From contig NZ_JARXLA010000003.1 of the NCBI RefSeq assembly GCF_029872155.1, positions 434,001-498,000 on the forward strand: a DNA stretch of 64,000 nucleotides. Direction: 5' to 3'. The position numbers and the translations under genes were made by a program. This stretch comes from Hyphomicrobium sp. D-2 (GTDB lineage Bacteria; Pseudomonadota; Alphaproteobacteria; Rhizobiales; Hyphomicrobiaceae). Below, one piece after another: positions 4,251-20,243 of the stretch (positions within the stretch are counted from its first letter, which is position 1; each line of letters begins with the position of its first letter). The notes under the pieces are model-generated. The model ran no database searches and was not told the DNA's origin. It was given only the letters and a program-made list of their open reading frames with translations.

Positions 4251-5205
4251 GGTCATTCGGTCGTTAAAAAAGTGAGCCTGGAATAGCCGTCGCTGCAGAA
4301 GTTTGAGCAGCCAAGGGAGACGCGTGCCGTGGCGCTGTGCGTATCGGATCACGGCAAGGCCTCCCACAACGAGAAGCCACCTCAGGTAATGATCACCGCG
4401 TTTCGATATCTTGCCGAGGCGCTCCTTGCCGCCGCTAGTGATTGTTTCGGCACCAGGCCGATGAAGGCCGCGAAGCTCCTGCCGTTTTTGAAGTTTGAAG
4501 CGTCGCCGACGGAGGCAACGAGCGCGCTAGCCGCGAGCGGTCCGATGCCGGGGATTGTTGCCAGACGCATGCTCGCTTCGTTCGACCTGTGCCACGCCAT
4601 CACTTGCCGGCCGAGCTCGAGGATCTGGCCTTGTAACAGTCGATATTGATCGACCAGACACATCAGCGCGCGACGCGTCACATCTGTGATGCGATCATCT
4701 TCGCCAGAGACGATCATGTCGATCAGTCGAGAGAGCCCGATTCGGCCGATGCTCTCGATGATGTCGAACTCCGCGAGGTGGGCGCGGATCGTGTTCCCCA
4801 TCCGCGTGCGATGCGTGATCAGCGTGGATCTGGTTCGATGCAGCACCAGCACGCTCTGCTGCTCGATAGTCTTCGTCTCGGCAAACCGCATGTTGGGTCG
4901 GGTGACGCCTCGCATATTGCCTCGGCATCAGCTTCATCGTTCTTCTGCGTCTTCACATAGGGTTTCACGTATGCCGGCGGCATAAGGCGAACCTGATGAC
5001 CGAGCTTCCGGATCGTGCGCGCCCAATAGTGCGCGGTTGCGCAGGCTTCAATGCCGACAAGACAGGGCTCGAGTTTTACGAAGAAGGCCTCGACCTGCGC
5101 ACGACGAAGCTTACGGCTAAGAACCCTTTCGCCATGAGCATCGACGCCGTATGCGTGAAAGACGTTCTTCGCGATATCGATGCCGACTGTTGCTGGCTGC
5201 ACCAT
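4242..5205 (-). pseudogene. IS110-family transposase, frameshifted
   Basis: The N-terminus (MVQPATVGIDIAKNVFHAYG, with the DEDD-fold Asp in GIDIAK) reads from 5205 and shifts frame near 4905, after DADAEAICEA-type sequence. A middle frame carries the Transposase_20 signature (LATIPGIGPLAASALVASVG, then FAAFIGLVPKQ) and shifts again near 4450. The last frame reads GGKERLGKISKRGDHYLRWL and stops at 4242-4244. Together the pieces give about 320 residues, a normal IS110/IS1111 length. With two shifts the copy is inactive unless these are sequencing errors. IS110 elements lack strong terminal inverted repeats, and I could not define exact ends. Confidence 0.85.
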
Positions 5206-10871: not shown

Positions 10872-11069
10872 GAATCGCAGCTTTTCGCACGCGACGCACA
10901 AATGTCCGCTTCAACGATGCTATCACATTAGTGCGAATTTGAAGTGCCGCATTGCTGCCGAATGACAGCGAGTGCCACGAATCCGATGACAAGGAATTGT
11001 GCGGTACATGGGAATTTTGTTTGAACGCTTCGCGCAGGAAGACGTTGGGGATTAAAAGGAGATCCCATT

Positions 11070-12395
11070 ATGCGCGCGTTCATGCACTTCACTATCCTTG
11101 CACTCATAAGCACATTTTCGGCACACGCTAGCGAGACACCGCCAGTTAATTCGGCATACGGCAGCAAACCGGTTCTTGTTGAACCCGAAAGTCGATGGAT
11201 TCCCATTCCGCGCATCAACGAGATGACAGCTGTTGGCTGGACTGCGGATGGCGCACCCGTCGCGGCAGAAGGGCTGAAGGTGTCGCGGTTTGCTGATGGC
11301 TTCATCCATCCGCGTTGGGTTTACACGTTGCCAAACGGCGATGTGCTGGTAGCAGAAGCTTCCAGCTTGCCGCTGTCCAACAAGGGATTAGTAGGTTCGG
11401 TGATGGAGCACGTGATGCGAAATGCTGGCGCGGTGCAGGAGACTAGCCCGGATCGCATTGTGCTGTTGCGTGACGCCGATGGTGATGGTGTTGCGGAGAA
11501 ACGCGAGATCTTCCTTGAAGGCCTGCTCCAGCCTTTTGGAATGGCACTCCTCGATGGCCATCTTTATATTGCCAACACCAACGCGCTTGTGCGCGTGCCC
11601 TATACTGACGGAGACCTTACCGCCGCAGGGCCGCCCGAAACAGTGGCAGCATTGCCATTCCGCGCTGATGACAATGGTCATTGGACGCGTAACGTGATTG
11701 CTTCTCCGGATGGCTCGCGCCTGTTTGTGACAGTCGGGTCTATCAGCAATATCGCTGAGCAGGGCATGGATATCGAACAAGGGCGTGCCATGATCTACGC
11801 CGTAAATCCTGCAACTGGCACACTCACAGAATATGCCACCGGATTGCGCAATCCGAACGGCATGGGTTTTGCGCCTGGCACAAATACGCTTTGGACTGTC
11901 GTTAATGAGCGCGACGGCCTTGGAGATGATCTTCCACCGGATTATCTGACATCGGTAAAGGAGGGCGGGTTTTACGGCTGGCCGTGGGCATATTGGGGCC
12001 GCGCCGATCACCGTTTCAAAGCCGATGAGATTCCTCCCGGCACGATTGAGCGAACGATCCGCCCCGACTATGCATTGGGCGGTCACACAGCCGCGCTTGG
12101 TCTGGTTTTTAATGACAAGCCCGCACTAGGACCCCAATGGCAAGGCGGCGCCTTTGTTGGTCTGCATGGTTCATGGAACCGGCGCGAGCCCAGCGGATAT
12201 CGCGTGATCTATGTGCCGTTTACGAACGGTCAACCAAGCGGAATGCCGGTGGACGTTCTCACGGGCTTCCTTGATGCTCAAAGTAACGCAATGGGACGTC
12301 CAGTAGGTGTGGACATTGCTGGCGATGGCGCGCTTTTGGTCGCCGACGATGTCGGCAAGGTCATTTGGCGTGTCGCTCCGGCTATGGCCCAATAG
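11070..12395 (+). CDS. Exported PQQ-dependent sugar dehydrogenase-like protein (sorbosone/YliI type)
   Basis: A 441-residue protein with a Sec leader (MRAFMHFTILALISTFSAHA) and a strong ribosome site AAAAGGAG eight bases upstream of the ATG. The body is a six-bladed propeller with the family landmarks PRWVYTLPNGDVLVAE, ATGLRNPNGMGF, GGFYGWPWAYWG and GLHGSWNR. This family oxidises sugars or aldoses in the periplasm with PQQ. It follows the oxidase genes in the same direction, so its electrons could reach the oxidase through a cytochrome c; that link is inference. No PQQ biosynthesis genes are in the window. Confidence 0.85.
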   Translation: MRAFMHFTILALISTFSAHASETPPVNSAYGSKPVLVEPESRWIPIPRINEMTAVGWTADGAPVAAEGLKVSRFADGFIHPRWVYTLPNGDVLVAEASSLPLSNKGLVGSVMEHVMRNAGAVQETSPDRIVLLRDADGDGVAEKREIFLEGLLQPFGMALLDGHLYIANTNALVRVPYTDGDLTAAGPPETVAALPFRADDNGHWTRNVIASPDGSRLFVTVGSISNIAEQGMDIEQGRAMIYAVNPATGTLTEYATGLRNPNGMGFAPGTNTLWTVVNERDGLGDDLPPDYLTSVKEGGFYGWPWAYWGRADHRFKADEIPPGTIERTIRPDYALGGHTAALGLVFNDKPALGPQWQGGAFVGLHGSWNRREPSGYRVIYVPFTNGQPSGMPVDVLTGFLDAQSNAMGRPVGVDIAGDGALLVADDVGKVIWRVAPAMAQ

Positions 12396-12499
12396 CTGTC
12401 AAAGGTTGGACCGCTGACATTCGCGCGCGGAGTGGTGATCCGCCCCCAATGAATTGGTCCGCCTCGAAGTAATGGTTTCTCCCTAGAGGAGGACCTCAG

Positions 12500-12682
12500 G
12501 TGCCGAAGAAGACCTACAAGCCGGAAGAGATCGTCGCGAAGCTGCGGCAGTCAGATGTGATCGCGCAAGGCAGCAACATCCCCGATGCCGGAAGTGTTCG
12601 CGGCGATCGCTGGTGGTCTTACTCGCAGGCTGCGCCAGCCGACCGGAAAGTGTTATCGCGGCGAGCGAAGGGCAAGCGGTAA
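12500..12682 (+). pseudogene. IS3-family OrfA remnant
   Basis: The start MPKKTYKPEEIVAKLRQSDV is the usual opening of an IS3-type OrfA. The helix-turn-helix (normally ending TYYRWR) is degraded to GDRWWSYSQ, and the frame ends after 60 residues. There is no OrfB behind it. The upstream text has the character of an IS end, but I could not fix a terminal repeat. It is a dead fragment marking past transposition in this accessory region. Confidence 0.75.
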
Positions 12683-12685
12683 TTG

Positions 12686-12716
12686 AGGGCTCGAAGACCA
12701 TCCGACTTCGAGCCCT
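12686..12716 (-). terminator. Stem-loop downstream of the small exported protein gene
   Basis: A perfect 11-base stem (AGGGCTCGAAG / CTTCGAGCCCT) with a nine-base loop starts six bases after the stop of the minus-strand gene at 12722. There is no long T run, so termination is inferred from stem strength and position. Confidence 0.55.
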
Positions 12717-12721
12717 GGTTG

Positions 12722-12973
12722 TTACCTAGTTTGGTCGGGTGTTTTAGAAGGCTTTGAGGCTTCAGGAGCTGCTTGCGAGTCTTGCTCGCGATCGTCCTTG
12801 CCCATGCCCTTAGGTTCTATTGATTCCCGGCCCACGCTAGCAGGCTTGTCGGTGCCATCCTTATTGGTCTCCGGCGCCTTTTTGTCTGTGGGTTGCTCCA
12901 TACTGCCACCGGCCAATACCGGCGACCCTGCTAAAAGCGCACTAGCGACTGCGATACCAATAATCCGATACAT
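12722..12973 (-). CDS. Small exported hydrophilic protein
   Basis: An 83-residue protein with a clear Sec leader (MYRIIGIAVASALLAGSPVLA). The mature part of about 60 residues is charged, rich in Lys, Asp, Pro and Glu, and likely unstructured. AAGGAG lies seven bases before the ATG, a strong ribosome site, and a stem-loop follows the stop. I know no family for it. Its composition resembles two other small exported proteins in this window (42015-42347 and 46545-46838) without obvious sequence identity. Confidence 0.7.
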   Translation of the reverse strand: MYRIIGIAVASALLAGSPVLAGGSMEQPTDKKAPETNKDGTDKPASVGRESIEPKGMGKDDREQDSQAAPEASKPSKTPDQTR

Positions 12974-13078
12974 TGATCATCTCCTTGAGCTGTTGTCGTC
13001 CCCACTTTGGAAACGCCAACTGCCACTCGCGGTTGCACGGTTTTTTGTATCGAATTCGTTTGGGCCTTTGCGCAGCGT

Positions 13079-13288
13079 TCAGCTCAGGCTGCGACGTCGT
13101 ACGAACGGAATCACGCGATGCTCATGCTGCACCGGCTCCGACTCTTCAGCCACGTCATACGCATGTCCGTCTCTACTGAACCGATCAGCTGCCAAGATCG
13201 CTTTTGTCTTTGAACTAAATCGGGCAAGTACGATGCCGCTGCCACGGCGCGAGACTCGCCAATACTTGTCTGGCTGTTGCTCACTCAT
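13079..13288 (-). CDS. Small hypothetical protein, DUF2188-like composition
   Basis: About 69 residues from ATG 13288, which has GGAG six bases upstream; the ATG three bases earlier is spaced too tightly. The order YWRVSRRGSGIVLARFSSK, then TKAILAADRFSRDG, resembles short DUF2188-type proteins (a strand pair, then a helix), but the match is loose. It is encoded in line with the small exported protein. Function unknown. Confidence 0.5.
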   Translation of the reverse strand: MSEQQPDKYWRVSRRGSGIVLARFSSKTKAILAADRFSRDGHAYDVAEESEPVQHEHRVIPFVRRRSLS

Positions 13289-13938
13289 CATGATGCTCCT
13301 GCGTTGCCGCATGGCATCGACACATACAGTTTCGAGCGTCAGGTATTTTTCGCGTCAATGCTTGTTTATCTGATGCTCAACTCCTCCAGACCTCATAAGT
13401 TCATTTGTGGATTCAGCTTTGGTCACAATCCACCTCTCTCTCCGCCAGCATCATAAGAATCATCGACAGCTTTGGGCGAGCAATCGACAGATCCCGATAT
13501 TTCGTTACACGAATGGATGGCGCCCCGTAGGGAAGGTGTTTATTTCAACGAAATCATTGCGGTACTAAGCACACCTTCCGACAGAATCTCGCACTGCTTC
13601 TTATAGTGCAGTTTGGCGTTTCCCAACCCGACGGGTGTGAAGGCCATCTCCCCTGCACTTGCCGCATCACCACCGACCACTGTCGCAACGTCCCATGAGC
13701 TGACGTGGACGCTCGACCGCGCTTGCTCTGTAGTGTGGACCAGAAGATGTCCGCTTCGGAAGGTTGAATAGCCGTGGCGTTGATCACGTTAAAGGTCGTC
13801 GATGCCCGCCCCACTCCATCGAGGCGTACACGACGCGATCTTTGATTGGCGAGGCTCACGCGTTCAGTTTGCATCAGCGGACCGCAGGTTTCGTCGCCGC
13901 CAGAGTTGGGCCGAGGGGTTCCTTGATCGTATCGGCGC
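13289..13938. other. Gene-poor stretch in the accessory region
   Basis: About 650 bases with no supportable gene. Long frames exist on both strands but lack ribosome sites and recognisable content. The 13-base palindrome core at 13501-13513 is shared with 1234-1246 in reverse orientation. The stretch is probably debris between mobile fragments. Confidence 0.4.
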
Positions 13939-14730
13939 TTAGCTGGCGTCGTCAGTCGGGGCTCCATCATCTCCTTGTGTCTGCACAGATTGAAGGTTCG
14001 CGCTTGACGATGCCTCGCCGGCTTTCTTCACCCTCTTGCTAATCCGGCGCTGCTTAGGAGGCACTTTTGCCTTTAGCTTCGCAGTCTGCTCCTCGTGCAC
14101 AAACGAGTTGTGAATGAACCGTTCGAGCGTGGTCATCATGGTATCGACCTGCTCGAGCGTAGGCTGCCATCCGCGATGCATGGCGGCGTTGCCCGCCTCT
14201 ACCATCGTCGTGAGATCGGATTCTTCGTAGGTTCCGATCCGACCCTGAACCTTCAGCGCGCCAATCTTCTCTTCGAAAGATATCGTAGGGTCGATCCCCA
14301 GCTTCGACACAGCAACGTCGAACGCTGTACGTACGCCGCTAGCCGCGAGAATGAGGAGGTCGTTATCGATTGCGGTATAGAGGCTCTCGACAAGCCGGTA
14401 TAAATCGCTCTCCGCAGCGAAAAACCAACCGCCAAACCATTTAGGACGATCTCGCTTCGAAAGCGACGGGTAGTATTTGAATCTAGCGACCGGCGTGAGC
14501 TGGCCGTCGTAATCCTGTTCTACGTCCTCGGAGAAAAAGGACTCGTGCTGATAGTACACCGTATTGCAGCCGCGACACTCTAAGAGACGATACGTGTCGC
14601 CTCCGAAAACACCGGACCTTTCGTCATCGTACTGGCTCTTTATCTCGCCTCGTATGTCGGCCCATTTGTCTCGACCACACAGTGGACATTCCCCTTTGAC
14701 GCGCTCGTCGGCGTTGGTGTTGTCGGACAT
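13939..14730 (-). CDS. DUF4145 protein with zinc ribbon
   Basis: 263 residues from ATG 14730 (MSDNTNADERVKGECPLCGR). The N-terminal zinc ribbon has CPLC and CRGC pairs about 40 residues apart. The central helical region (LYRLVESLYTAIDNDLLILA, GVRTAFDVAV, EAGNAAMHRGWQP) is typical of DUF4145, a HEPN-like helical domain often found in or next to restriction and other defence proteins. The tail (last ~50 residues) is basic and low complexity (KVPPKQRRISKRVKK). It is the last gene of a minus-strand run that starts with the GHKL/nuclease gene. A role as partner or effector of that ATPase is inference. Confidence 0.72.
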   Translation of the reverse strand: MSDNTNADERVKGECPLCGRDKWADIRGEIKSQYDDERSGVFGGDTYRLLECRGCNTVYYQHESFFSEDVEQDYDGQLTPVARFKYYPSLSKRDRPKWFGGWFFAAESDLYRLVESLYTAIDNDLLILAASGVRTAFDVAVSKLGIDPTISFEEKIGALKVQGRIGTYEESDLTTMVEAGNAAMHRGWQPTLEQVDTMMTTLERFIHNSFVHEEQTAKLKAKVPPKQRRISKRVKKAGEASSSANLQSVQTQGDDGAPTDDAS

Positions 14731-14831
14731 GCGATGCTCTATTAATGCTGCCAGTTGCAATTGCCTTGGGAATATGCGCGCTCCGCGATCCAGGGCACGG
14801 TGCCCTTACTGCGAATGCCTGTAATCCTCGC

Positions 14832-14930
14832 CTAGCCCGGCAACGTTCTCGTCTTGATCATCTTGTCAACCGCGTCGTGTAAGATCACGGGATAGTGCAT
14901 CGCGCGGCCTTTCGCCTTCGAAGACGTCAT
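14832..14930 (-). CDS. Micro-ORF, 32 residues, overlapping the preceding micro-ORF
   Basis: Reads MTSSKAKGRAMHYPVILHDA and stops at 14832. Its ATG overlaps the stop of the frame at 14927-15019 (ATGA), the usual sign of translational coupling. It lies between the GHKL gene and the DUF4145 gene on the same strand. No known family. It could equally be a decayed fragment of a longer gene. Confidence 0.35.
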   Translation of the reverse strand: MTSSKAKGRAMHYPVILHDAVDKMIKTRTLPG

Positions 14931-15019
14931 CCGGGCAACAGTTCTGATATTGCCGTTGTAAACTCGTTGCCAACGATCTTTTCCAATTCGCTCAGCGGGC
15001 GCTTGCGCCTCTCGTTCAT
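14927..15019 (-). CDS. Micro-ORF, 30 residues, just after the GHKL gene
   Basis: Starts at ATG 15019, only 22 bases after the GHKL stop, and reads MNERRKRPLSELEKIVGNEF plus ten residues. It is basic at the N-terminus with a possible helix behind. It shares an ATGA with the next micro-ORF. Spacing and strand suggest co-transcription with the GHKL gene; function unknown. Confidence 0.35.
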   Translation of the reverse strand: MNERRKRPLSELEKIVGNEFTTAISELLPG

Positions 15020-15041
15020 GGTCTTTGCCGATGATTCCGGC

Positions 15042-17012
15042 TCAGGCCGTATTCGCCTCCCGCACGTCGAACAGCCCTGGCACGCTTTCGCGTGCGGGCG
15101 GCGCGACGACAAATTCGACAAGACCTTTATTGCGCAGGAAAGGCGCCTCCTGCAGGCGCTTGCGCAGATTGAACATGCGCTTTTCCGCCTGCGTCAGGAA
15201 GCTGGAGTATAGCAGAGGGCGGATGCGGACCTGCCGGTCGCGCTCAGTGAATTCGCTCGCCTCGGCGGCCTCGACGAACTCGCCGAGGACGAAGCCGGTG
15301 ATGAGCGTGCCGTCGGTAACGAGACCCTTGGAGATCAACTCCTTCACGTACTTCCACACCTGCTGCTTCGCGTCGGACCCGAGAACGAGGCCCGGCTTCT
15401 TGAGCTCGACGACCACGAGCCGCGATGTTCCGGTCACGTTGTGCGTTTCCGGATCGAAGGCGGGGATGGCGTAAAAGCCGACCGTGCTATCCGGCGTCAT
15501 CACGAAGTCGGGCCGGTTACGGCTCGCCGCAACATCGACCTTAAACAGCTTCTGGATGACCGTCGTCATCGTCTCGTTCGAGGTGAACTCGATGCTCTCG
15601 AATTCCGGCCCGAATATCCACAGCGCGTTGCCGAATAGAGGCTGCAGTTCCTGCACCTCCTTGATCTGTGGGTTCGCCGTGGCGATGCGGATCTCCTCGA
15701 TGATCCTAAGGCGCCCTTCGATCTCATCGAGCGCGACCTTCGCTGTGCGCACGGTCCACTTCGCTAGGATGTCGTTCAGCGCGTCGATGTCGCCGGGCGG
15801 AAGACCGCTCAGCTTTTCGAGCAGGCTGTACTGCGACTGCGCGCGCTCCATGTTGGCCATCAGCCCCATGAGTTGATCGACCTGCGGTTCGCTGATATTC
15901 GGGCACCGGTCCACGATCTCGTCGAGCAGCGCGTTCCAGCGCTCTCGGCTCAGCGGCGGCAGCTTGCGTACTTCTTCGCTGTGCGTCTCCCGCACCGTGT
16001 TCTTGGCGGCGGCGCGCCGCTCCGTCGTGATGTCGCGGATAACATCGACGATCGTGTTCTGCAGCGGGTCCTTGGCTTTCTGCCACTCGCCGCTCTCCGG
16101 CTTGAAACCCGTCCAGTCCGGCAGCACCGCCGGCATCAGGAAGTCCGCCTCGACGACGAACGTGTAGCGCTTAGCTTCCTCGGTGCGCCCGTCCAGCAAC
16201 TTCTCCTGGTCGATCCAGCGCCAGTTGCAGTCGCCTACGAGTCGGCGGTTGACCCACCACGCGACGCCGTGCTGCTTGGCGGTGCGGTCAGTCTTCTGGC
16301 TGTCGATGACGCGGATCATGGCGGTGCCTAGGCCGTCAATAGTCACGGGAATCTCGCGCAGGGACTCCTCGGGAATGTCGGCGAACGTAACGCGCACGCC
16401 ATTGACCGAAACAGCGAACTCCGGGTCCATCAAGAAGCGGGTACTCAGGAGCGCGCGCACGTCTTCGTCCGACAGCAGGACCGACTTCAGATGCACGCCG
16501 GAAATGATGCAGCCGTGGCCGTCCGTTTCTTTGGACTCTCCGATTTGCTTCACGTCGAACGGCTTGCCGGTGGCAAAGCCCCTTGAAATCTCGAACACGA
16601 CCAGCTTCCCGTCGCGCCACGTCGTGACGCGGTAGGGATCGGAGAAGTAGAAGCCCGCGAAACGACCCTTTCCGTTCCTGCCGAACACGCGGCGCGTCTT
16701 CCTGCTGGCAAGGTCCGGCGGCGGCTGCACCGTCTCGCCGCCCTGCGATTTGATGCGGTCATAGGCGAAGGTCCGCCACCTGACATCGACCTCGGCTTCG
16801 GTCATGCCGATGCCGTTGTCTTCGATGCGGAAGGGTGTAGCGTCGTCCGGCCATGTGACATCAACCTTCGTCGCGTACGCGTCCCAGGCGTTCGCGACCA
16901 GCTCGACGAGGGCGACCACGGGATCGCGCATGATTTGCCCAGCGTAGTCTTCCAGGAACCGGTCTTCGAACAGGGTTCCTTGTCCGGGCGGGCTCGCTGC
17001 CTTCCGGGCCAT
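15042..17012 (-). CDS. GHKL (MORC/Hsp90-like) ATPase with C-terminal PD-(D/E)XK-like nuclease region
   Basis: 656 residues from ATG 17012, with GGAG five bases upstream (a TTG at 17033 is less likely). The GHKL ATP site is complete: N box ELVANAWDA (E37, N41, D44), G1 IEDNGIGM (D65, G67, G69) and G2 FGRNGKGRFAG (111-119). Residues ~340-470 are helical. Near the C-terminus RPDF (D502), VVVELKKPG (E536, K538) and KQQVWKYV (Q550/Q551) fit a PD-(D/E)XK nuclease core. Prokaryotic MORC-type ATPases are known partners of restriction systems; here ATPase and nuclease-like region share one chain. It heads a minus-strand run with two micro-ORFs and a DUF4145 gene in a mobile-element-rich region. An anti-phage role is likely but inferred. 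Confidence 0.82.
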   Translation of the reverse strand: MARKAASPPGQGTLFEDRFLEDYAGQIMRDPVVALVELVANAWDAYATKVDVTWPDDATPFRIEDNGIGMTEAEVDVRWRTFAYDRIKSQGGETVQPPPDLASRKTRRVFGRNGKGRFAGFYFSDPYRVTTWRDGKLVVFEISRGFATGKPFDVKQIGESKETDGHGCIISGVHLKSVLLSDEDVRALLSTRFLMDPEFAVSVNGVRVTFADIPEESLREIPVTIDGLGTAMIRVIDSQKTDRTAKQHGVAWWVNRRLVGDCNWRWIDQEKLLDGRTEEAKRYTFVVEADFLMPAVLPDWTGFKPESGEWQKAKDPLQNTIVDVIRDITTERRAAAKNTVRETHSEEVRKLPPLSRERWNALLDEIVDRCPNISEPQVDQLMGLMANMERAQSQYSLLEKLSGLPPGDIDALNDILAKWTVRTAKVALDEIEGRLRIIEEIRIATANPQIKEVQELQPLFGNALWIFGPEFESIEFTSNETMTTVIQKLFKVDVAASRNRPDFVMTPDSTVGFYAIPAFDPETHNVTGTSRLVVVELKKPGLVLGSDAKQQVWKYVKELISKGLVTDGTLITGFVLGEFVEAAEASEFTERDRQVRIRPLLYSSFLTQAEKRMFNLRKRLQEAPFLRNKGLVEFVVAPPARESVPGLFDVREANTA

Positions 17013-17060
17013 ATTCACTCCATCGTCTTCCAAGCCCCTTTTCTACTCAGAATCCGAAGG

Positions 17061-17204
17061 GTGGGCGATGCTCAACTGCATTACGTAAGCAGATATCAAC
17101 GGCCCTCTTTCTGGCCGCCCGTCCTGGTGGGGGCGTGTGTCGTCGGCCTATACTTTGCTTTCGGCGCGACATCACTGGGCTCTATCCTGCCAGCGCCGCG
17201 CTAG
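17061..17204 (+). CDS. Possible single-pass membrane micro-protein, divergent from the GHKL gene
   Basis: A 47-residue frame from GTG 17061 with one strong hydrophobic helix (RPSFWPPVLVGACVVGLYFA). It starts 49 bases from the GHKL start on the opposite strand. The ribosome site (AAGG directly before GTG) is too close to be convincing, so expression is doubtful. Function unknown. Confidence 0.25.
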   Translation: MGDAQLHYVSRYQRPSFWPPVLVGACVVGLYFAFGATSLGSILPAPR

Positions 17205-17258
17205 GCCGCGACCTGAGCCGCGTTCTCGTCGTAAAATCGTACGCAAGATCTTCCCCGG

Positions 17259-17536
17259 TCAAAGCGGCTCACTCGGTTGACTATTCAGATGTCCGTTAAT
17301 CGAGGTATCGCGACCCCATATTGAAGTCGATCGCTCGGTTGAGCAGGGAGGGCGTCCGAGGTCCGCAAACTCGGCATTTCGACCGATCCGCGTATTAACC
17401 GCAAACTGAGACGCCGAGCACATCCCGCTCGCGGGGGAAAGCGCTGCGTGCAAGGCGTCGTATAGCCCAGCGAGGAATGCGGTGGGCTGCCCAGGTCCAC
17501 CTTAGCCACTGCATAAGAACCTGGGCACGTTGTCAA
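17259..17536 (-). pseudogene. IS3-type OrfB C-terminal remnant
   Basis: On the minus strand PPHSSLGYTTP matches the conserved (R)PHSSLGYLTP tail of IS3-group transposases. It is followed in a shifted frame by about 60 residues of tail-like sequence ending at 17259. No catalytic DDE residues remain. This is a short dead fragment; no matching start or terminal repeat is visible. Confidence 0.5.
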
Positions 17537-17584
17537 TCTGAGCTACGATCGCTGCTAAATGCCTGCGTGTGCAGCGACGACGCG

Positions 17585-18147
17585 TTACGAATGAGCGTTA
17601 CGATTCATAGCGCGGCTCAGCGTGAGCGGCGAAACCTGCAGAGTTCTGGCGAGTTCCCCATGCCGAATCTCCCCCGAAGCTAAAGCAACGGCGGCGTAGA
17701 GGATGTCGTCAGGAGTCAGTTAGGCGGCTGTCCTAAACGCCGCCCACGGTTGCGTGCTGCCTCGATGCCTGCACGCGTTCGCTCGGCTATTAACGCGCGT
17801 TCGAACTCCGCGAGCGCACCCATCATGTGCATGAGCAGCCGCCCACTAGGCGAGCGTGTGTCTATGGCTTCTGAAAGTGAGACGAGCCCAATGCCCCGTT
17901 TGTCCAGGTCTGCGGTGAGGGTGATCAGATGGGCCAGGCTACGTCCAAGGCGGTCGAGCTTCCAGGTCACCAGCGTGTCGCCTGCTTTCAGCTGTCTGAG
18001 AGCTCTCGCTAGGCCAGGGCGGGTACTTATGGCGCCCGACACTCCAAGATCCTCGTAGATCTTTTGGCATGCCGCTCGACGCAACGCATCGAGCTGAAGA
18101 TCGAGATTTTGATCGTCGGTTGAGACGCGCGCATAACCAACTCTCAT
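17585..18147 (-). pseudogene. Tn3-type serine resolvase/invertase, one-base frameshift before the HTH
   Basis: From ATG 18147 the catalytic domain is intact: MRVGYARVSTDDQNLDLQLD with the nucleophile Ser9, then LVTWKLDRLGRSLAHL and GALAEFERALIAERTRAG. The frame stops at 17716 right after GRRLGQPPN. One base over, the expected HTH continues as LTPDDILYAAVALASGEIRH, then LARTLQVSPLTLSRAM, ending at 17585. A missing A in the QPPK region explains the break. Without the HTH the protein should not bind its res site well. It is the opposite-strand counterpart of the broken resolvase at 3783, suggesting two transposon relics around the accessory genes. Confidence 0.82.
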
Positions 18148-18376
18148 CGTTCGGCACCTCGGTGATACGGCGCCATCGCGCCCTTCAGCGCGTCTAACAA
18201 AAAGGGAGGTTTTTGAAGGTAAACGGATTGCGATGCGGAGGATGCGAAAAAGGCCATGATCGGGAGGTTATCGCATCGTAACCAACCCGTCAGAGAGCTG
18301 CACAATAAACGTCCCTTTTTGATCGCGACGCGGATCTGTGGAAGATCAGGTTGTCTTCGCCACGACAGGTACGCGC

Positions 18377-19447
18377 ATGTCAGCTGCAGGCCGGCAGCCG
18401 ATCACAATAAGCAGAGCCGAGCTGTATCAGGCCGTGTGGGCAGAACCCATGAGGCGGCTGGCAGCAAAGTTCGCCATCTCGCCGCAACGTCTAGCCAAGA
18501 TTTGCGAGCAACTTGAGATCCCGGTTCCACCCCGTGGCGAGTGGGGGAAACTACCTGATGCGACCAACAAACCCGCGCTCAAGGCACCTGGACGTTCGAT
18601 CGCTGAAACGATCACGATAACTTCCACCCATGCCAAGTTTACGCCCGGTGGGCGAACCAAGAGCTATGACGGGACAAATGCGCCGGTGGAGTTCGTCCAC
18701 CCGGCAATAACGGATTGGCTGGCGAGTAGCGAAACCCTCGCACGCCGCCCCTACGCACGTTCCCTCGGGAAAGAGGAGACGGTCACGAGATACCGAAAAG
18801 AATTGTGCTTCCTCGATAGGCTGTTTCACGCCGCGGAGAAAAAGGGTTTGTGGCCCGTTATGAGTGATTTTGATCGCATTCAATTTCAGTCTCAGGGCGA
18901 GCGTATCAACTGCGTCCTGAGCCAGCGCAAAGCTTATGTCCAAAATGGCGCTCTTCGACAATTTAAGCGAACCAGCGAACTCATCTTCCACGTCAACCAC
19001 AGTTTGCCGCCGCGGCTTGGTGGTCTGCTGAATTGGGCGGAACAGAAGGATGGTCAACTTGAGAAGCATATCAGCGCGATAGTCGATGCGCTCTTAGAAT
19101 GCGTGCCGGTGATTGCTGAAGATCGCGTCCGGAGTGAAGCGGAGGCTGAGCGCCGAAGAGATCAAGCGCTCAAGGCTGAGCGCGAGACGCAACACCTCCG
19201 TCGCGAGCAACTCCGCCGTCAAGCACTGCTCGTCTTGGCTGAGCGCCACCGCTCTGCGCAGGCGTTGCAAGAACTCATCGTGCGGATGGAACGTGAAGCA
19301 GAGGATACGTCTCGTGTCGTCGATGGCCAGACGATCACCGATTGGCTGGCATGGGCACGCCGCCAGCTGGTGCTTTCCGATCCACTGTCGAAGGGGATTG
19401 CGAACCTCTTTGAAGAGGTGGCTGCATCCGCGCATGCCAAAGATTAG
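18377..19447 (+). CDS. Unknown protein with HTH-like N-terminus and C-terminal coiled coil
   Basis: About 356 residues from ATG 18377 (a GTG at 18338 would add 13). The N-terminal section ISRAELYQAVWAEPMRRLAA, then ISPQRLAKICEQLEIPVPPR and GEWGKLP, is a recurring motif of uncharacterised accessory-genome proteins and looks like a helix-turn-helix. The middle (residues ~90-230) has no motif I recognise. Residues ~250-310 form a long Arg/Glu-rich coiled coil (AEAERRRDQALKAERETQHL). It lies between the broken resolvase and the iteron-like repeats next to tRNA-Gln. A DNA-binding role is plausible, its job unknown. Confidence 0.7.
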   Translation: MSAAGRQPITISRAELYQAVWAEPMRRLAAKFAISPQRLAKICEQLEIPVPPRGEWGKLPDATNKPALKAPGRSIAETITITSTHAKFTPGGRTKSYDGTNAPVEFVHPAITDWLASSETLARRPYARSLGKEETVTRYRKELCFLDRLFHAAEKKGLWPVMSDFDRIQFQSQGERINCVLSQRKAYVQNGALRQFKRTSELIFHVNHSLPPRLGGLLNWAEQKDGQLEKHISAIVDALLECVPVIAEDRVRSEAEAERRRDQALKAERETQHLRREQLRRQALLVLAERHRSAQALQELIVRMEREAEDTSRVVDGQTITDWLAWARRQLVLSDPLSKGIANLFEEVAASAHAKD

Positions 19448-19466
19448 ACGGGCCGCGAAAGCCCGC

Positions 19467-19536
19467 GGTATTACAAAAAGTATTACAAAAGCTATCGCGG
19501 GGTATCACAAAAAGTGTCACAAAAAGTATTACAAAC
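19467..19536 (+). repeat. Five iteron-like 12-base direct repeats
   Basis: Consensus AGTATTACAAAA. Two units (19467-19490) are followed by a 10-base spacer and three more units (19501-19536), with one to three changes per unit. They begin 20 bases after the stop of the HTH/coiled-coil protein gene and end 64 bases from tRNA-Gln. Regular 12-base phasing recalls replication iterons or recombination directionality factor sites. Confidence 0.7.
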
Positions 19537-19599
19537 TGGCTCTTAGTCGGCGCACTGGTCAAAATTATAGAGTAATATCAATAACTTAGCACGCATTTG

Positions 19600-19673
19600 T
19601 GGCTGGGGGACTAGGATTCGAACCTAGACAGGCAGAGTCAGAGTCTGCAGTCCTACCATTAGACGATCCCCCA
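19600..19673 (-). tRNA. tRNA-Gln (CTG)
   Basis: A 74-base cloverleaf read on the minus strand. The acceptor stem is TGGGGGA/TCCCCCA with discriminator G and an encoded CCA. The anticodon arm GCAGA-CTCTGAC-TCTGC gives anticodon CTG. The T arm is CTAGG-TTCGAAT-CCTAG. Its 3' end faces the accessory region to the left, and the core genes start on its 5' side. Confidence 0.95.
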
Positions 19674-20243
19674 AAGCCGGGATCAACGGCAATTGCCGTC
19701 GGAGCGGCGCGTATAACAGTTGCTTCGCGCGCCCGCAAGCGATGAAACGGCATTTTCCTCCACAGCGCGTCGTGATGCGCGCCTGCTGCCTCGCTCGGTG
19801 CCTTTTTGTGACGGTTGACGCGACTGCTCACGGCTAGGGACGGCTATGTGCATCCATCCCGAGACCCTCACGCGCATCTTCGATCCCGAGATCCTCGCGC
19901 ACCGGCAGCAGCGGCGCGGTTTACGGCCGTGGGCTGGACGCATGCAGCACTTAGGGCTGTGGGGCAATCCCCACGCCGCCGCTTGGGGGATGCCGCCCGG
20001 TCCTGCGAATGCGTCTGGCCTGCGCGGCCCCTGTGAAGGCGGGCTGGCCGGTCCAGCCCTGCTTTCGCTCCGCCCATGCTATTGAAATTAGCAGATAAGT
20101 TCCGCCGCTTGGCTTCAGAAAGCCGCTGACGGCAGAAGCCGCGGCCCAGCACGCTTTACTGTTTACCGATAGCTGCTAGACTGGCAGCAAGTGTCGTCCA
20201 GAAGACGCCTGATGACGCGGGCAGGGGCAATCGTCCTCGCCGT
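19674..20243. other. Intergenic region between tRNA-Gln and ppx
   Basis: About 570 GC-rich bases. Several open frames exist on both strands, but none has a ribosome site, leader or recognisable content. It must include the tRNA-Gln promoter (reading left) and probably the ppx promoter. I see nothing else I can support. Confidence 0.4.

Follow-up and report, generated by a model that had tools for sequence, protein, structure and literature searches.

The window analysed here, 64,000 nucleotides of Hyphomicrobium sp. D-2 (contig NZ_JARXLA010000003.1, positions 434,001 to 498,000), encodes on its minus strand (15042-17012) a 656-residue protein in which an N-terminal GHKL ATPase is joined to a C-terminal nuclease domain of the Shedu type, and which is called the GHKL-Shedu protein in the following. 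The reading that we favor, at a probability of about 0.77, is that this protein is a solitary, single-protein anti-invader nuclease of the Shedu type, gated by ATP and acquired in a mobile spot beside a tRNA-Gln gene.

The frame begins with an ATG at 17012, preceded by a GGAG stretch resembling a ribosome-binding site, and it is intact without any internal stop, which confirms the single chain of 656 residues reported in a preliminary description of this DNA. Relatives were sought with six short patterns taken from the window protein in one genome per species (84,980 species), yielding 31 loci. The main alignment consists of 29 rows, i.e., the window protein (P0001) and 28 of the 31 homologues at 32-68% identity, with the split or partial L023, L027, and L030 left out. 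The residues E37, N41, D44, D65, G67, G69, G111, G114, and G116 of the ATP site are present in all 29 rows and N113 in 28 of them. On the nuclease side, E470, E472, D502, K538, and Q551 are likewise kept in every row, and E536 in all but one, which has an aspartate. The residue numbers given previously for the ATP site (E37/N41/D44, D65, G111-G116) and for D502, E536-x-K538, and a later glutamine (Q551) are correct, and all these residues are invariant except for the single deviations at N113 and E536. Comparison of the window protein with its nearest homologue over 648 codons gives a nonsynonymous divergence (dN) of 0.26 against a synonymous divergence (dS) of 1.9, which indicates that the gene evolves under purifying selection.

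The nuclease domain comprises residues ~450-636 (15105-15665, minus strand) and contains the landmarks WIFGPEFE, RPD502F, E536-x-K538, and Q551. It is recognized by profile-profile comparison with hhalign and by Pfam and PADLOC matches in relatives. For the comparison, a Shedu profile was assembled from 21 SduA_C domains of 25 loci found with PF14082, from which L087, L114, and L115, themselves bearing GHKL domains, and the weak L088 were excluded. A 25-row alignment of the C-terminal region of the window family reaches this profile with Prob 95.4 and an E-value of 1.9e-8, and a larger one, built from 61 stretches of 54 loci with some duplicates among them, does so with Prob 97.0 and 1.2e-10. 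WIFG, PDF, ELK, and Q line up between the two families, and the controls, a reversed Shedu profile and the middle region of the same family, remain at Prob 0.4 and 0.3, respectively. Weak matches to the Pfam model SduA_C are seen in 12 of the 29 aligned rows (best 0.0029), the window protein not being among these. When nine homologues were scanned singly, four (L013, L021, L028, and L031) displayed the domain, always in the C-terminal third, and the PADLOC model for SduA matches 4 of the 29 rows (best 1.7e-5). Judged by profile comparison, the C-terminus is a PD-(D/E)XK nuclease domain of the Shedu type, and the PD-(D/E)XK-like region of the preliminary description is therefore not only borne out but can be specified further. 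Homology thus places an SduA_C-type domain in the protein, which fails the curated SduA_C cut-off of Pfam, a naming rule and not a biological trait. The same domain is predicted to provide the restriction endonuclease (RE) fold with an E-D-ExK signature that characterizes paraMORC3 proteins, D502 and E536-x-K538 being preceded by a first motif glutamate that is probably E470 or E472.

Several observations weigh against this assignment. The window protein alone has no match to the Pfam model SduA_C up to E=1. PF14082 was also absent in a search of the window genome, a result of little weight as its control matched nowhere. An earlier profile of six Shedu domains reached only Prob 15 and an E-value of 0.0017, so that the relationship is weak with a six-row alignment and becomes clear only with 21 domains. 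When the nuclease profile was compared with PDB sequences, zero solved Shedu chains were recovered up to E=10; a canonical Shedu protein as query reaches PDB 8ti8 at 1.9e-26. In the AlphaFold2 (AF2) model, the nuclease domain belongs in part to the weakest regions, with block means of 54-76 for residues 461-510 and of 39 for residues 511-520; those for residues 531-620 are 77-87. A fold search with the full-length model returned zero Shedu chains among its rows, and the nuclease half was barely probed by it because the rows were filled with Hsp90-type ATPases.

The ATPase half is matched by the Pfam model HATPase_c_3 at 1.1e-15 and by Hsp90, GyrB, and MORC in the full-length fold search, so that the GHKL identity proposed earlier holds. 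The GHKL (Bergerat) domain, also discernible in the AF2 model, extends over residues ~19-210 (16383-16958, minus strand) with its ATP-site motifs E37-N41-D44, D65-G67-G69, and G111-G116, and it carries all the ATP-binding motifs expected of a paraMORC3 protein. An S5-like transducer domain follows at residues ~211-303 (16104-16382, minus strand), as predicted from AF2 secondary structure, fold-search rows for MORC2 and MORC3, and the alignment, in which G249, R257, D274, and R276 are invariant; the modeled order of GHKL and S5 folds is that of paraMORC3. The MORC2 and MORC3 rows cover up to residues 1-333 with a root-mean-square deviation of ~10 Å across both domains, and the angles between the domains therefore differ from those in MORC2 and MORC3. 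Residues 249-259 (GVAWWVNRRLV, including the invariant G249 and R257) almost match GhXhhpXXRhl, which PMC2292703 presents as an S5 motif specific to true MORCs. Between transducer and nuclease lies a long helical middle region (residues ~304-449; 15666-16103, minus strand), for which the AF2 model predicts helices at 308-343, 353-369, 375-402, and 421-446.

Models for MutL and HtpG match the ATPase half as well, as would be expected if the protein were a MutL- or Hsp90-like ATPase serving housekeeping or DNA repair. Such a role is very improbable, however, in view of the Shedu-type nuclease domain and of the patchy distribution of the family. A nearly full-length homologue (68% identity) occurs in only 1 of 198 genomes of other relatives, and the matches in 28 further related genomes are partial or ~20-50% identical. 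Homologues are carried on plasmids (19 records, 8 of them at 48-56% identity), and one member of the window protein's own clade (L055) is flanked by two integrase genes on a contig that resembles a prophage, with genes for a CI-like repressor and a primase nearby. The GHKL-Shedu protein has no match at 1e-5 in 50,697 phage records; among viral contigs, six loci with GHKL-Shedu relatives were found and none for DUF4145.

The genomic setting is consistent with acquisition. A gene for tRNA-Gln(CTG), detected with ARAGORN at 19600-19673 (minus strand), forms the right edge of a hypervariable region, as judged from synteny in five of seven congeners, G004 and G007 being excluded for their short contigs. 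To the right of the tRNA gene, the DNA is syntenic in all five. To its left, 17-36 kb per congener gave no blastn match to the window (E 1e-5, at least 60 bases) except for a 2.1-kb recombinase unit (17357-19487), which is 97% identical in the nearest congener (G001). The copy in G001 is situated ~30 kb from its tRNA gene, and a second, partial copy of 365 bp exists in the same genome. The unit consists of a gene for a 143-residue serine recombinase N-terminal domain (17716-18147, minus strand; Resolvase 2.6e-49) and a 369-aa open reading frame (ORF) whose Pfam matches are no better than E=0.23; as a whole, it is possibly a small mobile element. The setting beside a tRNA gene noted earlier is thus supported, with a hypervariable left flank at the tRNA-Gln gene and a recombinase gene nearby. 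PADLOC detects no defense gene among the three neighboring ORFs (DUF4145, recombinase, and 369-aa ORF), promoter and terminator scans gave nothing above chance, and no clear flanking repeat that would mark an insertion is present at 10900-19900. Direct repeats of the GTATTACAAAAA type occur at 19468-19535, just to the left of the tRNA-Gln gene. By eye, short ORFs at 12500-12682 and 4382-4915 of the window resemble fragments of IS3 OrfA and of an IS110 transposase.

Some homologues of the GHKL-Shedu protein are linked to restriction-modification (R-M) genes. In at least 10 of the 31 homologue loci, a number to be taken as a lower bound because not every neighbor was scanned, an R-M gene directly adjoins on the same strand. 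This gene codes for an Eco57I-type methylase in L006, L011, L024, and L026 (by Pfam) and in L025 (by BLAST cluster), for HsdM in L008, for an N6/N4 methylase in L028 and L029, for a type III Res protein in L013, and for a specificity subunit in L015; L018, where the gene of the methylase cluster is short and lacks a Pfam match, is not counted. If longest-ORF starts are assumed, the frames for the methylase and for the GHKL-Shedu protein share 4-41 bp in L024, L025, L026, L011, and L028, suggesting translational coupling. With these operons, a function in restriction that depends on a partner is conceivable, and they thus also count against a solitary nuclease. The window protein might accordingly belong to a type II-like R-M system as its restriction subunit, comparable to BbrUII/HgiDII, and cleave at specific sites unless these are methylated, with its methylase encoded elsewhere or lost. 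The PADLOC model REase_II matches all 29 rows, and the NCBIfam model for BbrUII/HgiDII matches the window protein at 2.2e-26, but the 92.6 bits obtained are far under the equivalog cut-off of 550 bits and the best stretch corresponds to the ATPase half.

Phylogenetic analysis of 37 rows (L056, L059, and L060 excluded) groups the window protein with L002, its nearest homologue, in a clade of 11 rows (support 99/96), the named members of which are alphaproteobacterial. None of these 11 rows has been seen in a same-strand R-M operon, although not every neighbor was scanned. Over the whole tree, the R-M operon trait requires at least seven changes, and its clustering is weak because 32 of 500 shuffles were equally low. 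Within the clade, an MmeI-type R-M pair is encoded ~3 kb from the homologue in L089 and, on the opposite strand, a 'restriction endonuclease' ~240 bp from that in L090, which might be taken in favor of a type II-like subunit, as might the one C5 methylase of the window genome, encoded on another contig (C1). In contrast, N6_Mtase has zero matches in the window genome, with a control that matched in 14 of 14 genomes and with PF01555 methylases not searched. On balance, a type II-like restriction subunit seems unlikely. An R-M subunit working with a local methylase finds no support as far as N6_Mtase types in this genome and the five frames scanned around the window gene are concerned, the latter giving no methylase match, and the one C5 methylase gene detected is far away. 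In L002 (5153-10813), genes for an SEC-C protein, a 278-aa protein of unknown function, the GHKL-Shedu protein, and an FRG-domain protein lie on the same strand with gaps of at most 20 bp between the longest ORFs, forming a possible four-gene operon, in which translation of the GHKL gene may actually start at a more internal codon.

The gene following that for the GHKL-Shedu protein codes for a protein of 263 residues (P0002; 13939-14730, minus strand) with a DUF4145 domain (1.5e-10, residues 117-202) and a zinc ribbon (CPLC...CRGC), of which C18, C52, and C55 are invariant in eight aligned rows including its own. The zinc-ribbon DUF4145 gene noted previously is therefore real, and we judge it to be a neighbor that does not belong functionally to the GHKL-Shedu gene. 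The two genes lie on the same strand, 311 bp apart, as they might if the DUF4145 protein, of HEPN fold, formed a two-gene system with the GHKL nuclease and served as its effector or antidote, and a HEPN-containing gene of another family is found near a homologue on two Rhizobiaceae plasmids. The constant pairing of homologues with DUF4145 that the preliminary description envisaged was surveyed in 37 genomes or records, i.e., the window's own genome, G026, 30 homologue genomes, and five viral contigs, with L021 excluded and with G026 and the L002 genome, apparently one assembly, both included. DUF4145 occurs anywhere in 3 of these 37 and adjoins the GHKL gene only in the window's own genome; the other two matches (genomes of L009 and L014) lie outside the homologue loci, which contain no such frame at the corresponding coordinates. 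BLASTP with P0002 detects zero relatives in the flanks of the 31 homologues (up to 8 kb per side, less at contig ends). The DUF4145 protein is itself rare, being found, apart from the window genome, in 2 of 198 related genomes and in 23 of 72,556 plasmid records; the 5 of these 23 plasmid regions that were viewed harbor no GHKL homologue, an ATP-binding protein in L096 not being a GHKL-Shedu relative at the thresholds used. The RNase motif of HEPN proteins is R-x4-6-H. All seven readable DUF4145 rows lack an arginine ahead of the conserved histidine (VEAGNAAMH in the window), the eighth row (L094) being out of frame before this site, and the missing arginine makes an RNase role of the family doubtful. 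The pairing is thus not conserved in the homologue genomes, flanks, or plasmid regions surveyed, the DUF4145 protein was rejected as a partner, and a two-gene system is very improbable; the gene appears to be a chance neighbor. The HEPN genes on the Rhizobiaceae plasmids (L091, 8936-10032; L090, 10567-11666) code for HepT-like proteins next to RusA, which are 64% identical to each other and by eye have an apparent nuclease-like N-terminus.

For a solitary ATP-gated nuclease, the predicted sequence of events would be as follows. On binding ATP, the GHKL domains of two chains would close, and the dimer, together with the S5 domains and the helical middle parts, would form a clamp for probing incoming DNA. 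This clamp would sense free ends, topology, or replication intermediates and not a methylation mark set from this locus. Its closure, or the turnover of ATP, would then free the Shedu-type nuclease (E470/E472, D502, E536, K538, and Q551) to cut the invader. By analogy, the GHKL-Shedu protein probably functions in defense, since VcSduA, which has the same architecture, blocks phages according to PMC12137116. From the ATP-gated defense nuclease with a HEPN-like partner proposed at the outset, the nuclease and a likely role in defense are retained, and the partner is dropped.

As the GHKL-Shedu chain occurs both in R-M operons and alone, one may tentatively consider, as a possibility short of an even chance, that the lineage switches its immune logic, being coupled to a methylase through overlapping genes in the R-M operons of some branches and acting alone, as a nuclease independent of methylation, in the alphaproteobacterial branch to which the window protein belongs. 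If this is true, the ATPase clamp would be a changeable reader of self and non-self, and the family would amount to an arm of Shedu hidden from the single-sequence models now in use. With the present data, the branch of Shedu that bears an ATPase comes to include a clade labeled only 'ATP-binding protein' in the five plasmid records viewed. In L087 (104-3237), a different GHKL-SduA_C protein adjoins an apparent C5 cytosine methylase gene (recognized by eye), and on a Rhizobium plasmid (L093, 6980-10385) a homologue is followed after 10 bp by a 'Shedu immune nuclease family protein', i.e., two Shedu-type nucleases in tandem.

The window protein fits a published architecture and hence a kind of protein that is already known. 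Iyer, Abhiman and Aravind (2008; PMC2292703) define paraMORC3 by a GHKL domain, an S5 domain, and an RE-fold nuclease with E-D-ExK, with some members in R-M operons and a standalone subset in proteobacteria and Bacteroidetes; the likeness of the window protein, with its C-terminal RE-fold domain, is to this family description. The BbrUII/HgiDII model (NCBIfam NF050001) has a similar length of 659 and is matched in the GHKL half, but the window protein stays below its cut-off and no adjoining methylase was found. With canonical Shedu SduA (PDB 8ti8), the nuclease domain is shared, as seen by comparison with the 21 SduA_C domains. The sensor half differs, being a GHKL ATPase in the window protein and an N-terminal DNA-end clamp in EcSduA, which senses DNA ends according to a review (PMC12904381). 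The closest counterpart by described architecture is VcSduA, reported in 2025, a single gene product with an N-terminal GHKL ATPase and a C-terminal PD-(D/E)xK nuclease of the Shedu type, an organization formerly annotated as paraMORC3. According to PMC12137116, VcSduA is active against T1-like Drexlerviridae phages, E27A and K557A abolish protection so that both ATPase and nuclease are required, and the data are compatible with direct restriction in which the host cell stays viable. The corresponding catalytic positions in the window protein are E37 and K538, and the DUF4263 signature described for VcSduA is not obtained for the window protein with single-sequence Pfam models.

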